Assembly: GCF_010092985.1 (NCBI RefSeq)
Contig: NZ_CP048106.1
Span: 310,001 to 374,000 of the forward strand
Length of the DNA: 64,000 nucleotides
DNA from: Pontibacter pudoricolor
Lineage (GTDB): Bacteria > Bacteroidota > Bacteroidia > Cytophagales > Hymenobacteraceae
Direction: 5' to 3'
Shown in pieces: positions 13,975 to 18,664 of the stretch (positions are counted from its first letter, which is position 1; each line of letters opens with the position of its first letter). The position numbers and the translations under genes are program-made. The notes beneath the pieces are model-generated. The model saw nothing but the letters and a program-made list of their open reading frames with translations, did no database searches and was not told the DNA's origin.

Positions 13975-14361
13975 TTATTTATTAAACTGTTTCAGCCATT
14001 CCAGGGCACTTTTTTTGTCAGTAAACATGCGGGTAGGGTTCTGCGGCTTATTTACCATTATATAAAAATTAGCCATCATTTTTGTAACCGTGGAATTGAT
14101 AAGTATAGCATTAGCTGTAATCCCTTCGTTACCTTCATTCGCAAAATAATCGCGGGCTTCCTTAGTAAAGTTTTTAATACTGATAACATCTACCAGGCAT
14201 GGGTAATCCTTATTTTCGGTAAATGCTTTGCGGGCTTGTACGCAGGCTTCTGCCACATGCTGGTCAAGGTTCTCAATCTGTTTATAATAGAAGTGCAGGA
14301 TACCTTCTTCTATAAACATCATTACATACGGTGTTTCATGTTTTTTTATGGCCTTCTTCAA
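13975..14361 (-). CDS. STAS/SpoIIAA-like protein
   Basis: A 128-residue cytosolic protein. It has the alternating strand-helix pattern of SpoIIAA/STAS-related domains: CLVDVISIKNFTKEAR around residues 56-71, and a last helix FTDKKSALEWLKQF. I believe it belongs to a Bacteroidota STAS-like family of unknown function, but no catalytic motif confirms it. It is divergent from the AONS-GNAT gene with 75 bases between the starts, so shared regulation with that gene and the kinase is likely. Confidence 0.6.
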   Translation of the reverse strand: MKKAIKKHETPYVMMFIEEGILHFYYKQIENLDQHVAEACVQARKAFTENKDYPCLVDVISIKNFTKEARDYFANEGNEGITANAILINSTVTKMMANFYIMVNKPQNPTRMFTDKKSALEWLKQFNK

Positions 14362-14436
14362 AATACTCTTTTAAAATGAAATAAATTTTGTTATAATCTT
14401 GTTACGTCATTTAAACTAACAATTTTACTAAACTTT

Positions 14437-16878
14437 GTGGCAAAAATAAGACACAATAACATTATTGATACGGTAGATTCGGTTCTTTCTTTATCAAAGA
14501 AAAAAGGAATTATCCATTTACATGCCGAAGACAAGGTATTAACTGGTGAGTCACTTATACTTAACGGTAAAAAGGTATTACATTTCGGTACATGCGGGTA
14601 TCTTGGCCTGGAGCATCACGCCGCTTTAAAACGGGGAGCTATAGATGCTATTGAGCGATTTGGGACCCAGTTCCCGATGTCACGTACCTATATTTCCAAT
14701 CCCTTATACAGCGAGCTTGAATCCCTGATTCAGGAAATGTACAAGGTACCGGCTGTTATCTCTAAAAACTGTACACTGGCGCACCAGACCACCATACCAG
14801 GTATTATCAGGCAAACCGACCTGGTTATACTTGATCATCAGGCGCATGCCAGCATACAGGAAGCTGTTAAAAAATTACTGGGCCAGGGCGTTGCCGTGGA
14901 GATGATCAGGCACAACAACCTGGAAATGCTGGAAGACCGCATTAAAAAGCAGCGCAACAAGTACAACCGTATCTGGTATATGGCCGATGGAGTATACTCA
15001 ATGTATGGCGATTATGCTCCTGTAAAAGAAATGATTGCACTGGCCGAAAAGTATGAACAACTATACCTGTATGTTGATGATGCCCACGGCATGAGTTGGG
15101 CTGGTAAACATGGCACCGGGTATGTTATGAGCCAGATGGACGGCGTGCTTTACCGTAAAATGGTACTTACTGCAAACTTGGGCAAAGGCTTTGGGGCATG
15201 TGGCGGCTTGTCTTTGTTTCCGGATGAGGAGTGGTACAACAAGGTAAATAACTTTGGCGGGCCACTTACTTTTTCGGTACAGATAGAGCCTGCGACACTT
15301 GGAGCAGCTATTGCCTCAGCTAAACTGCACCTTAGCGACGAAATTGTTACGTATCAGCAGGAATTGCAAAAAAGGATCGACCACTTTAATACACTGCTTC
15401 AGCAAACCGACCTGCCGCTGGTACACGAAAATAACAGCCCGATCTTCTTTATTGGAACCGGCACTATGGAAATGGGCAATTACCTTGTAAAAGCCCTGCT
15501 GAACGACGGTATTTATGTAAACCTGGCTACTTTTCCGGCTGTGCCTGCCAAAAATATCGGTATCCGGATTACGATATCTCTTAAAAACTCTTTTCAGGAT
15601 ATAGAACAGTTGGTCGCTAAACTCAGCTATAACTTTAAGCAGGCTTTAGTTGAAACCGGGCAGACTGATGAGAAGATTCGGAAGGCGTTTAAAATGCCTA
15701 TGCCAGCAGCGACACTGCTACAAGCGCCACCAGCAACTATAGACCAGACGGTTAACCTGAAAAGCTATATAACAATACAAAGTATAAAAGAGTCGGACTG
15801 GAATACTTACCTGGGGCATGAAGGTATGTTTGACTGGCAGGGGATGTTGTTTCTGGAAAAATCTTTCAGCAATAACAAGCAGGAAGAGAACAACTGGAAA
15901 TTCAGGTATTTTGTAGTCACCGATAATAAGGAGCGCATACTACTTATGACGTTTGCAGCAATTGCGTTATACAAAGAAGATATGTTTGCCCCATCATCGG
16001 TATCAAAGGTAATTGAGCAGGAGCGTGAGCTTAACCCAACCTACTTAATGGCAAAAGGTTTAATGCTGGGTAGTTTCTTTACTGAAGGCAAGCACATGTA
16101 CCTCGATAGGACCAGTGGAGTTTGGAAACTAGCCCTTACGATGTTGATACAGGAGCTCTTTAAAGAACAGGACAGAGAGCAGGTAAGTAATGTTATGCTG
16201 CGCGATTTTGATGCTGACGACCAGGAAATGCATGAATTTATGGTTGATCAGGGCTTTATAAAGATTGATCTGCCGGAATCCTGTGTGGTTGAAAACCTGC
16301 ATGGGCAAACAGAAGAGGCCTATGTAAATGCCCTGTCGCGGAAAAACAGGCGCCATTATGTACAGAAAATAAGGCGGAACCAGCATTACTTCGAAGTTGA
16401 AGTTAAGAGCAGCTTAACTGATGAGGAGCTTACCCATGCCTTCCTGCTTTTTAAGAAAGTGAAAGATAATAATCTGGCCATCAACAATAGTTTGTTCCCT
16501 GAAAAGTTATTTAAGGAAATAAACATAAATCCGGACTGGGAGTTTATAGTACTTTATCTGAAAGAAGAGTTCAGCACTAACCGGGATAGTGTAGCAGTTT
16601 GTTTTTGCCATAAAAATTCTGCTAAAGTATATAGCCCCATGCTTATCGGTATGGATTATGATTACCTGGCGGAATTTGGAATATACAGGCAGGCCATTTT
16701 TCAGGTGATAAACAGGGCTAACGAATTAAACTGTACAAAGATCAACTTCGGTATATCGGCGACTATTGAAAAACAGCGGATCGGTGCAACCACTTATGCT
16801 AAAGTAGGTTATTTTCAGGCAAAAGATAACTTTACGATGGAATTAATAGAAGCTACTTTCATGATTGATAGAGAGTAG
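14437..16878 (+). CDS. AONS-family PLP enzyme fused to a GNAT-like domain
   Basis: Residues about 1-405 form an alpha-oxoamine synthase of the KBL/BioF/serine palmitoyltransferase type. They carry the ADGVYSMYGDYAP block, the cofactor-binding DDAHGMSWAG segment, and the probable PLP lysine Lys250 in NLGKGFGACGG. These enzymes condense an acyl-CoA with an amino acid. Residues about 430-813 resemble a BioF2/FemAB-type GNAT acyltransferase (RRHYVQKIRRN, then FGISATIEKQRIGA near the end). The start is GTG at 14437. A hybrid histidine kinase follows 36 bases later. The substrate is unknown; a lipid or small signal molecule is possible. Confidence 0.8.
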   Translation: MAKIRHNNIIDTVDSVLSLSKKKGIIHLHAEDKVLTGESLILNGKKVLHFGTCGYLGLEHHAALKRGAIDAIERFGTQFPMSRTYISNPLYSELESLIQEMYKVPAVISKNCTLAHQTTIPGIIRQTDLVILDHQAHASIQEAVKKLLGQGVAVEMIRHNNLEMLEDRIKKQRNKYNRIWYMADGVYSMYGDYAPVKEMIALAEKYEQLYLYVDDAHGMSWAGKHGTGYVMSQMDGVLYRKMVLTANLGKGFGACGGLSLFPDEEWYNKVNNFGGPLTFSVQIEPATLGAAIASAKLHLSDEIVTYQQELQKRIDHFNTLLQQTDLPLVHENNSPIFFIGTGTMEMGNYLVKALLNDGIYVNLATFPAVPAKNIGIRITISLKNSFQDIEQLVAKLSYNFKQALVETGQTDEKIRKAFKMPMPAATLLQAPPATIDQTVNLKSYITIQSIKESDWNTYLGHEGMFDWQGMLFLEKSFSNNKQEENNWKFRYFVVTDNKERILLMTFAAIALYKEDMFAPSSVSKVIEQERELNPTYLMAKGLMLGSFFTEGKHMYLDRTSGVWKLALTMLIQELFKEQDREQVSNVMLRDFDADDQEMHEFMVDQGFIKIDLPESCVVENLHGQTEEAYVNALSRKNRRHYVQKIRRNQHYFEVEVKSSLTDEELTHAFLLFKKVKDNNLAINNSLFPEKLFKEININPDWEFIVLYLKEEFSTNRDSVAVCFCHKNSAKVYSPMLIGMDYDYLAEFGIYRQAIFQVINRANELNCTKINFGISATIEKQRIGATTYAKVGYFQAKDNFTMELIEATFMIDRE

Positions 16879-16914
16879 CGAACTTTACTTTTTAGTAGTG
16901 TAATAGGAAAATAC

Positions 16915-18603
16915 GTGGAAGTTCTACAGAAAAGAATTGAGGAGGTTATTACGTTCATTGCTGAAATAGCAAATGGAAACTTTGATTACCGGATGGAGGT
17001 CTCTGAAAACGGCGACGAGTTGGATGCCGTTATTTTGGGAATAAGCATGCTAGGGCAGGAACTTAAAAATTCTACTGTTTCCAGGGATTTTATGCAGAGT
17101 ATTTACCAGGGTGTGGTAGATATGCTGCTTGTGCTAAATACAGACTATACCATCCGGAATGTAAACGATGCTTTTGAGGAGTTAACCGGCTACACGCAAG
17201 ATGACCTGGTGGGCAGGCATTTTACGGAGATTTTCAGTGACAATGAGAACCTGCGCCTGCTGGAGGCTTTATTTAAGCTCGAAAATGAAGGCAAATGCCT
17301 GAATACGGAATTCCTGTTGTTAACGGCAAACCAGACTACCATCCCGGCATCCTGTTCATTTTCTTTTCTTAAAAATAACCTGAAAGAAACAGACGGCATT
17401 CTGATTATAGCGAAAGATATTACCGAACTGAAAAATAAGGAGCGGGAACTGCATATAGCGAAAGAAAATGCTGAAGCTGCCAACGAAGCTAAAAGTAATT
17501 TTCTCTCCAGTATGAGCCATGAAATCCGGACGCCGCTGAATGGTATAGTAGGTTTTACCAACTTGTTGGTCAATACTGATCTGGATAATACGCAGGCACA
17601 CTATGTAAAGCTGATTCAGAGTTCGGGATCTACACTTACCAAACTCCTGAACGATATACTGGATCTGCATCGCATTGAACAGGATAAGATAGCGATTGAG
17701 ACTATTCCGTTTGATCTGAAAGCGACCATGGCTTCTCACCTGGAACCTTACAAGTATATTGCCGAAGCAAAGAAAGTCAGCTTTAACTATAGTTTCGATG
17801 ATGCAATTCCCCAGGTAGTTATCGGCGACCCGACCCGTATAAACCAGGTACTTATTAACCTGGTGAGCAATGCTATAAAGTTTACTGAAAAAGGAAGTAT
17901 TGATGTACACTGTTCGCTGGAAAATTTAAACGAGCAGGCTGCTGAGGCTACACTCTATTTTACAGTAACTGATTCGGGAATAGGTATACCGGCAGAAAAG
18001 CAGGAAATTATCTTCGAGTCGTTTACACAGTCTGACCAGTCTACAACGCGTAAGTATGGCGGCTTTGGGCTTGGGCTGGCAATCAGTAAAAAACTTGTAA
18101 AGCTGATGCAAGGCGAAATGGGCATAATAAGTGGTAAGGAAGGGCAGAAAGGTACTTCTTTCTGGTTTAAGATCAGTCTGAAGTACGACACAAAACCAGC
18201 CATTAACCCTGCCGAAGACGAGGCCGATGCACTTTTCTGTTTGCCAAACGAGCCGAAGATACTGGTAGTTGATGATAACCCCATGAATGTGCTGCTGATG
18301 CAGGATGTATTGGAGCAGATGGGAGCAGCAGTAACCAGCGCAAAAAGCGGCGAAGAGGCTTTACAGCTTGCCACTAAACAACCCTTTGAACTGATCTTTA
18401 TGGATATCCAGATGCCGGGAATGGATGGCCTGCAAGCGACAAAGCAACTCCGTAGGCAGAACTATAGCCAACCTATAGTTGCTTTCTCGGCCAATGCCTA
18501 TAAAGATGATATTACCCAAAGTATGAACGCCGGTATGAATGACCATTTATGCAAACCGTTTACCACAAAAGAGTTGGTAAATATGCTGCGCAAGTGGTTG
18601 TAA
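16915..18603 (+). CDS. Cytoplasmic PAS hybrid histidine kinase
   Basis: A 562-residue phosphorelay protein. Domains in order: a HAMP-like helix (about 1-55), a PAS domain (60-180, DMLLVLN...FEELTGYT), HisKA with phosphorylated His202 in SHEIRTPLNG, an HATPase domain (NQVLINLVSNAIKF, DSGIGIP, GFGLGLAIS), and a C-terminal receiver with DD and phosphoacceptor Asp497 (FMDIQMPGMDG). No transmembrane segment is present, so it senses a cytosolic cue. The start is GTG, 36 bases after the AONS-GNAT gene, implying one operon. No DNA-binding regulator is adjacent. Confidence 0.92.
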   Translation: MEVLQKRIEEVITFIAEIANGNFDYRMEVSENGDELDAVILGISMLGQELKNSTVSRDFMQSIYQGVVDMLLVLNTDYTIRNVNDAFEELTGYTQDDLVGRHFTEIFSDNENLRLLEALFKLENEGKCLNTEFLLLTANQTTIPASCSFSFLKNNLKETDGILIIAKDITELKNKERELHIAKENAEAANEAKSNFLSSMSHEIRTPLNGIVGFTNLLVNTDLDNTQAHYVKLIQSSGSTLTKLLNDILDLHRIEQDKIAIETIPFDLKATMASHLEPYKYIAEAKKVSFNYSFDDAIPQVVIGDPTRINQVLINLVSNAIKFTEKGSIDVHCSLENLNEQAAEATLYFTVTDSGIGIPAEKQEIIFESFTQSDQSTTRKYGGFGLGLAISKKLVKLMQGEMGIISGKEGQKGTSFWFKISLKYDTKPAINPAEDEADALFCLPNEPKILVVDDNPMNVLLMQDVLEQMGAAVTSAKSGEEALQLATKQPFELIFMDIQMPGMDGLQATKQLRRQNYSQPIVAFSANAYKDDITQSMNAGMNDHLCKPFTTKELVNMLRKWL

Positions 18604-18632: not shown

Positions 18633-18664
18633 AAAAGCCCTTCCTGAAACAGGAAGGGCTTTTT
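18633..18664. terminator. Bidirectional terminator
   Basis: The arms AAAAGCCCTTCCT and AGGAAGGGCTTTT pair perfectly around a 5-base loop. It separates the kinase gene from the convergent TonB-dependent receptor gene. Confidence 0.85.

Follow-up and report, generated by a model that had tools for sequence, protein, structure and literature searches.

A fused alpha-oxoamine synthase-family enzyme linked to a DUF7793 gene and a putative soluble sensor in Pontibacter pudoricolor and other Bacteroidota

Introduction

The closest described systems are the Cqs and Lqs loci (CqsA/CqsS of Vibrio and LqsA/LqsS of Legionella), in which, according to the available text of PMC3376566, a synthase of the alpha-oxoamine synthase (AONS) type is linked to a histidine kinase, a hybrid kinase in the case of CqsS. 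AONS condensation also occurs in the serine palmitoyltransferase (SPT) and cysteate C-fatty acyltransferase (CFAT/SulA) pathways, where it is followed by N-acylation, as described in the accessible parts of PMC9386255 and PMC9304779. Here we report on a locus of Pontibacter pudoricolor, contained in a stretch of 64,000 nucleotides (the window; positions 310001-374000 in a 4.34 Mb single-contig genome), in which a fused AONS-family enzyme gene is followed by a hybrid histidine kinase gene and a gene for a DUF7793 (PF25056) protein is divergent from both. With moderate confidence we lean towards a sensor-controlled enzyme cassette, readily lost or moved, that would make an N-acylated aminoketone. 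Dedicated small-molecule signalling is, to our knowledge, little known in Bacteroidota.

The cassette is like Cqs and Lqs in that an AONS-type enzyme gene is linked to a histidine kinase gene, as found in 31 of 31 loci of the family. What sets it apart from them is the enzyme subfamily, which lies outside the CqsA/LqsA model, the fusion to a probable acyltransferase part, a soluble sensor where theirs is trans-membrane, the added DUF7793 partner and an output which varies by lineage. With SPT and CFAT/SulA the enzyme shares the AONS condensation type; unlike them it forms a separate clade, has Cys or Thr in place of a conserved Asn and carries the putative acyltransferase as a fusion. Among the titles and opening lines of abstracts covered by our literature search no description of this unit was recognised, and none of the papers covered contains the names DUF7793, PF25056 or PRK07505; most subscription papers and preprints lie outside that coverage, and a description may exist.

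Results and Discussion

Structure and distribution of the cassette

All three genes were found where the initial annotation, made from the sequence alone, had placed them, and its account of an AONS-family pyridoxal phosphate (PLP) enzyme, a hybrid kinase 36 bases further on and a divergent third gene was confirmed. The fused enzyme gene (14437-16878, plus strand) has a GTG start and encodes 813 amino acids (aa); the gap of 36 bases separates it from the kinase gene (16915-18603, plus strand, 562 aa) and one of 75 bases from the DUF7793 gene, which may start at a TTG or at an ATG some 14 codons further in. The features of the three genes are as follows.

13975-14361, minus strand: DUF7793 (PF25056) STAS-like protein, 128 aa (Pfam E 1.2e-43; divergent neighbour in 31/31 family loci)
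14437-15636, plus strand: AONS domain, aa 1-400 of the fused enzyme (Pfam, NCBIfam)
15184-15186, plus strand: codon of the predicted PLP lysine K250 (residue alignment)
15724-16875, plus strand: probable C-terminal tandem GNAT/FemAB-like acyltransferase part, aa 430-813 (weak Pfam matches here, stronger in relatives)
16915-17073, plus strand: HAMP-like N-terminal part of the kinase, aa 1-53 (HAMP 16.2 bits, under cut-off)
17089-17433, plus strand: PAS domain of the kinase, aa 59-173 (PAS_9, E 8.4e-17)
17488-18588, plus strand: hybrid kinase output, HisKA, HATPase_c and REC (Pfam, motif positions)

At E 1e-60 or better the fused enzyme is present in 31 of the 150 genomes of the family, in two of its six genera, and the order of divergent DUF7793, enzyme and kinase is identical in all 31 (L001, L005-L033 and L188; L and G numbers are our handles for loci and genomes). 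The linkage of the three genes is not chance. Wider flanks were compared for five enzyme-bearing loci besides L188; those of L101 and L066 are like the window, L104 shares two genes several kb off, and L102 and L103 share almost none. Sought in other Bacteroidota, as the initial annotation had proposed, the association of these genes is tight and survives both divergence and rearrangement; the random association that would have refuted its reading was not observed.

Within the genus (n = 50), 32 genomes carry the sensor part at E 1e-12 and the identical 32 carry DUF7793 at more than 130 bits, one further genome having a 58-bit copy only. The enzyme occurs in 27 of the 50, all of them among the sensor-bearing 32, and in none of the other 18; 20 of the 23 enzyme-negative genomes were named individually, the other three falling within an unlisted remainder.

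Searches beyond the family matched 32 of 341 genomes in the order, eight of them from the window's family, and nine of 395 in a phylum sample, one of them the window's own; both searches scored two candidates per genome, so that the loci per genome are lower bounds (a copy in G325, L171, was missed there). The 26 fused homologues outside the family comprise 18 from the order and eight from another family of the class, f26 (seven genomes); L047 is cut by a contig end, and the contigs that hold L040 and L047 are 4.7 and 3.4 kb long. In 22 of the 26 loci the gene divergent from the enzyme is DUF7793, and a HAMP-like/PAS protein is found in 19, as judged by a local profile seeded partly from the same loci counted. 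The 215-aa neighbour in L074 is similar to the sensor by eye and unmatched by this profile. At least three fused enzymes, each with a divergent DUF7793 gene, are carried by G325 (L070, L073 and L171). L080, L081 and L082 form one clade in the AONS tree, and the neighbours in L080 (5840-7015) and L081 (5199-6845), where DUF7793 is missing, are lipid-related: an APP1-type phosphatidate phosphatase and an FAD-dependent glycerophosphate-oxidase-like enzyme.

One sensor part with several outputs

In the kinase of the window a weak HAMP match (aa 15-40, cut-off 25 bits) precedes PAS (59-173), HisKA (192-256, with HEIRTPL at 202), HATPase_c (304-422) and REC (449-558). The initial annotation had described the kinase as lacking a membrane segment, and this holds; no membrane-like stretch was found, the top 19-residue Kyte-Doolittle mean being 0.96. 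The HAMP-like part is common to sensor proteins of other output types. Outside the family, L067 and L068 have a hybrid kinase as output, L069 a HisKA kinase, L075 one of the HisKA_3 type and L092-L099 an AraC helix-turn-helix (by Pfam for L095 and by sequence cluster for the rest); in seven loci (L070, L072, L073 and L076-L079) no output was recognised, by Pfam for L070 and L078 and by length and similarity for the rest. Matches to the local profile are weak in these output-less proteins (E 3e-6 to 6e-20).

The f26 loci, with their AraC-type sensors, give an indication of wiring. Ten f26 loci, two of them without an intact enzyme, were aligned across the region between enzyme and DUF7793, and a repeat was written from this alignment as TCCYRAWTTGAYAA. 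When two mismatches at most are allowed, the 2,439 bases of these regions hold 16 copies, spread over nine of the ten loci (all but L098), whereas 50 shuffles gave 0.5 on average and never more than 2; outside the enzyme/DUF7793 regions there are 38 occurrences in 139,137 bases. Copies commonly lie at intervals of 21 bases, as is known for AraC-family sites, and in several loci they recur just before a MauE-like gene 3' of the AraC-type sensor gene. A 21-base tandem allowing up to three mismatches gave 14 matches in seven of eight whole genomes and none in a reversed control; 11 of the 14 are within the cassette, seven in the enzyme/DUF7793 region and four before the MauE-like gene, and the remaining three are some 12-13 kb off, 1.4-2.7 kb upstream of SusC-like genes (by eye). 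For f26 at least, these repeats point to regulation of the enzyme gene by the sensor.

On one side of the f26 loci (L092-L099, L193, L194 and L217-L220) stand genes for RteC (Pfam, one tested), an AAA ATPase and an excisionase-like helix-turn-helix protein, and on the other the MauE-like gene, small secreted Cys-containing peptides and S9-peptidase/SusD/SusC-like genes (by eye). An integrative element may carry the f26 cassette as cargo, along with a second operon governed by these repeats.

Sensors kept where the enzyme is absent

Five of the genus genomes, G038 (L138), G079 (L185), G097 (L184), G107 (L187) and G117 (L186), carry the sensor and DUF7793 without the enzyme, and in all five the two genes stay divergent, 260-790 bases apart. 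Decayed pieces of the enzyme lie in the gap of L184 (tblastn E 2.7e-17) and L187 (E 3.5e-11); in the gaps of L138, L185 and L186 tblastn found no enzyme remnant below E 1. In a kinase tree of 37 rows the five genomes stand on five separate branches, and the well-supported branches force five changes. Whether the enzyme was lost or gained cannot be read from the tree alone; in two genomes the remnants establish its loss. Pairwise dN/dS of the kinase is 0.078 (window/L184) and 0.083 (L019/L187), whereas four wider comparisons, a solo sensor being included in two of them, gave 0.087-0.124; that of DUF7793 is 0.131 and 0.152 against 0.092 and 0.108 in wider comparisons, two more being saturated; the divergence measured by such pairwise values is partly older than the loss. 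By this measure the kept sensor kinases appear to be under purifying selection. The gap between kinase and DUF7793 in G038 (L138:6361-6920) contains many short repeated CCCCTCAAGGGG-type elements (by eye).

Such genomes bear on another account of the locus, the one put forward in the initial annotation, that of an autoinducer or second-messenger loop, in which the enzyme would make a small signal, DUF7793 and the HAMP-like/PAS protein would be its cytosolic receptor and the outputs would be different responses. Synthase and sensor are linked as in Cqs and Lqs (PMC3376566, in its available text); the enzyme in the genus is always accompanied by the sensor (27/27), whilst the sensor stands alone in 5/32 and under apparent purifying selection, which is a receptor-solo pattern; and the sensor part is kept while the outputs differ. 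However, the enzyme is outside the CqsA/LqsA family, four of the 26 distant fused enzymes have no sensor, and the sole independent hint of wiring, the f26 repeats, runs from sensor to enzyme gene. Pairs of DUF7793 and a HAMP-like kinase also exist away from any AONS gene (L143, L144, L195, L196 and L201), so that the two must be of use even when the enzyme is missing, and a sensor with other target genes would likewise outlive the enzyme. We therefore regard the loop as possible but doubtful. It is a guess that the sensor reads the product: the sensor-only genomes, and the lack of enzyme-only genomes in the genus, make the idea more attractive, and the four sensorless enzyme loci elsewhere and the DUF7793-kinase pairs with no enzyme nearby make it less so. 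The furthest extension of the loop, a new Bacteroidota signalling class with an N-acyl aminoketone messenger made by the fused enzyme, a soluble DUF7793 and HAMP-like/PAS receptor, an output exchanged by lineage among phosphorelay, AraC transcription factor and protein-only partner, and frequent receptor solos, seems to us unlikely.

The fused enzyme

Aminotran_1_2 matches aa 46-392 of the fused enzyme (Pfam E 2.9e-22). The nearest NCBIfam model of its AONS domain is PRK07505 (NF005697, 'hypothetical protein') at 293 bits, under the curated cut-off of 342; the model has 405 positions and stops short of the C-terminal part. Other scores are 174 for BioF, 156 for SPT and 146 for KBL. Membership of the CqsA/LqsA family was rejected, since the enzyme scored 84.7 and 87.2 bits in two runs against a cut-off of 428 for that model (NF005526), and the KBL (186), BioF (178) and CFAT (159 bits) of the same genome all score above it. 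The interpretation of the initial annotation, a signalling locus by analogy with Cqs and Lqs, is on the whole partly supported: the linkage of synthase and kinase stands, and the enzyme is not of the CqsA/LqsA family.

K250, H137, D214, H217 and R377 are invariant in all 60 fused rows (the window and 59 others, five genomes having been entered twice). We take K250 to be the PLP lysine, H137 the stacking His, D214 the Asp and R377 the carboxylate Arg, roles assumed in part and in part drawn from the accessible text of PMC9304779. An Asn stands two residues before the YLG tyrosine in four of four reference enzymes; in the same column 48 of the fused rows have Cys (at aa 53 in the window), 11 have Thr and one has Tyr, and eight of ten AONS-only relatives have Cys. 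This column presumably corresponds to Asn53 of SulA. Asn53, Arg376, His140 and Lys251 are given as four conserved active-site residues of the Spt family, and the Arg and Asn are thought to act on the substrate carboxylate (PMC9304779, in the part available). As the usual Asn is replaced, the substrate of the cassette enzyme may differ. The fused protein is presumably a working alpha-oxoamine synthase, an activity that we infer from its family.

Shared family and intact PLP-chemistry residues would also be expected of an ordinary housekeeping enzyme (KBL, BioF, SPT or the sulfonolipid CFAT) with chance neighbours. The genome, however, has three other AONS enzymes elsewhere: a KBL (698 bits, over cut-off), a BioF-type enzyme (under the cut-off of that model) and a CFAT-type enzyme. 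For the last (L003) an identity as SPT was rejected, its matches being to PDB 7u7h (E 3.9e-188) and 28eh (E 4.4e-181) against 1.8e-70 for the SPT 3a2b; by these matches it is of CFAT type, with a predicted role in sulfonolipid synthesis. In an AONS tree built without CqsA, LqsA and Bacteroidota SPT sequences, these three enzymes and an SPT of E. coli are split from the cassette enzyme at 100/100; of the phylogeny proposed in the initial annotation, the separation from KBL and SPT is thereby obtained, the CqsA and LqsA sequences standing outside the tree. The cassette enzyme groups with none of the housekeeping types, is missing from 23 of the 50 genus genomes and has conserved neighbours, and a housekeeping identity, which we rejected, is very improbable indeed. 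Support for the fused clade itself is 86/92, which is not decisive. One of ten AONS-only relatives in the order sample adjoins DUF7793 (G270, L084); it is placed inside the fused clade at 99/96 and has therefore probably lost its C-terminal part.

The initial annotation had noted an extra GNAT-like domain; in the protein of the window this falls short of the cut-off (Acetyltransf_6 at aa 635-776, 17.2 bits against 22, Pfam), and in all eight relatives scanned it is at or over it (22.1-31.5 bits). FemAB_like is listed in five of the eight, three at or over the cut-off of 27. The part weakly resembles PF13480 and PF04339 acyltransferases. On account of these matches in relatives, the extra part is probably a tandem GNAT/FemAB-type acyltransferase. 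A predicted model of it had a pLDDT of 46.5. YghO is listed as the E. coli acyltransferase of dihydroceramide synthesis in the accessible part of PMC9386255; comparison with YghO of E. coli BL21 (hhalign) gave a probability of 0.4% and E 0.16, and homology to the bacterial ceramide N-acyltransferase (YghO/CC_1154 type) is not supported by it. In the single-contig genome G484 (L099:6434-8861) the fused enzyme is split into two overlapping frames inside the acyltransferase part.

The DUF7793 protein

The divergent gene encodes a protein matching PF25056 at 148 bits (cut-off 26, Pfam), the one such match in its own genome, next to the enzyme. A SpoIIAA-like match reaches 17.8 bits (cut-off 25), the profile matches PDB 3bl4 at E 1.4e-16, an entry titled merely 'uncharacterized protein', and RsbR weakly at E ~0.1. 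With a predicted model of low confidence (pLDDT 64) Foldseek found nothing at E <=0.001; SpoIIAA and RsbS appear among unrelated folds, the best at E 0.02. The fold of DUF7793 is probably like that of the STAS proteins SpoIIAA, RsbS and RsbR and of 3bl4. Unlike SpoIIAA, RsbS and RsbR, DUF7793 is paired with HAMP-like/PAS effectors and is without an invariant Ser or Thr: F113 is the sole invariant residue in 24 rows, and a SpoIIAA-like phospho-switch is thus not indicated.

These likenesses allow a third account, a direct protein gate, in which DUF7793 and the HAMP-like/PAS protein would bind and switch the enzyme as in stressosomes, the kinase and AraC parts being later additions. It would suit the output-less sensor proteins that stand beside the enzyme in several loci, as well as the likeness to 3bl4, the weak one to RsbR and that of the low-confidence model to SpoIIAA and RsbS. 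Against it, the sensor pair persists without the enzyme and no Ser or Thr is invariant across the 24 rows, and we consider it decidedly unlikely.

In the order sample 104 DUF7793 places at >=31 bits were taken, 28 of them within 1.5 kb of an AONS gene, and six genomes (G164, G325, G281, G245, G292 and G270) have 5-13 copies each; most of the extra copies fetched are without a directly adjoining sensor gene. Among 40 further DUF7793 loci from the order, one (L171) has another fused enzyme, and of the remaining 39 a sensor is directly beside DUF7793 in four (L138, L143, L144 and, weakly, L166). Ten loci came from the phylum search. In L195, L196 and L201 the DUF7793 gene and a kinase gene with a HAMP-like part overlap; in L193 and L194, which have a broken enzyme or none, DUF7793 is followed by an AraC-type sensor; and the other five have no partner of either kind adjoining. 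Given these pairs at loci without the enzyme, DUF7793 and a HAMP-like effector can form a unit of their own that is joined by the enzyme; many DUF7793 genes have neither. In family f23 two genomes have a DUF7793 gene of weaker match directly next to one for a glycosyl hydrolase of family 20, on opposite sides of it (L197:5869-8607; L198:3885-6292).

A working model

The genome comparisons document a recurrent set of parts, their co-occurrence, their differing outputs and the repeated absence of the enzyme beside a kept sensor, twice with remnants. From these a sensor-controlled cassette may be pictured in which the AONS domain would condense an amino acid with an acyl thioester and the C-terminal acyltransferase would most likely acylate the amine at once, giving an N-acyl alpha-aminoketone by a ceramide-like logic. 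DUF7793 and the HAMP-like/PAS protein would act as one soluble sensor, presumably as a physical complex, with an interchangeable output. This sensor pair would answer a cue in the cytosol by controlling the enzyme gene along with others: in the window the hybrid kinase would have to hand its phosphate to an unlinked partner, and in f26 the AraC regulator would use the operator-like repeats between enzyme and DUF7793 and before the second operon. For the lineage of the window this direction of control is what we infer.

Several observations weigh against such a cassette. Four of the 26 distant fused loci (L071, L080, L081 and L082) have neither partner, 35 of the 39 lone DUF7793 loci have no sensor directly adjoining, and the Fisher tests ignore relatedness. 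The seven sensors without an output domain cannot regulate genes alone. With no match to YghO, N-acylation rests on the weak GNAT/FemAB matches. Since the enzyme/DUF7793 regions themselves supplied the repeat pattern, only the MauE-like and distant places are independent, and by eye the aligned sequences from the lineage of the window show no such repeat.

Related genomes with the whole cassette, the sensor pair only or nothing, together with one sensor part joined to several outputs, amount to a natural experiment. If the product were the cue, it would represent a new class of messenger, read by a soluble receptor made of two proteins; otherwise the locus would still hold an enzyme that fuses two steps, has an altered active site and is under a dedicated two-protein sensor. 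Either way a first testable role for DUF7793 is offered.

Other features of the locus

Two further features lie outside the coding regions.

14362-14436, no strand assigned: divergent promoter region, 75 bases (sequence reading; alignment of 18 family loci)
18633-18664, no strand assigned: terminator-like hairpin and T run, 3' of the kinase gene (by eye, no terminator scan)

A known anti-phage defence system was rejected, PADLOC matching no family at 1e-5 with any of the three proteins. In viral contigs, pattern scans turned up no relative of either the enzyme or DUF7793, and an Rfam scan of the window matched only tRNA. A contig scan of other genomes gave one matching locus, in Pontibacter sp. 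Tf4. The promoter region is poorly conserved across the 18 family loci except for a CAA..TA element directly 5' of the enzyme start. At 14399-14439 a TTG...CAA..TA pattern common to the family loci lies close before the GTG start, with no obvious ribosome site (by eye), and the enzyme message looks, by eye, as if it were leaderless or short-leadered.

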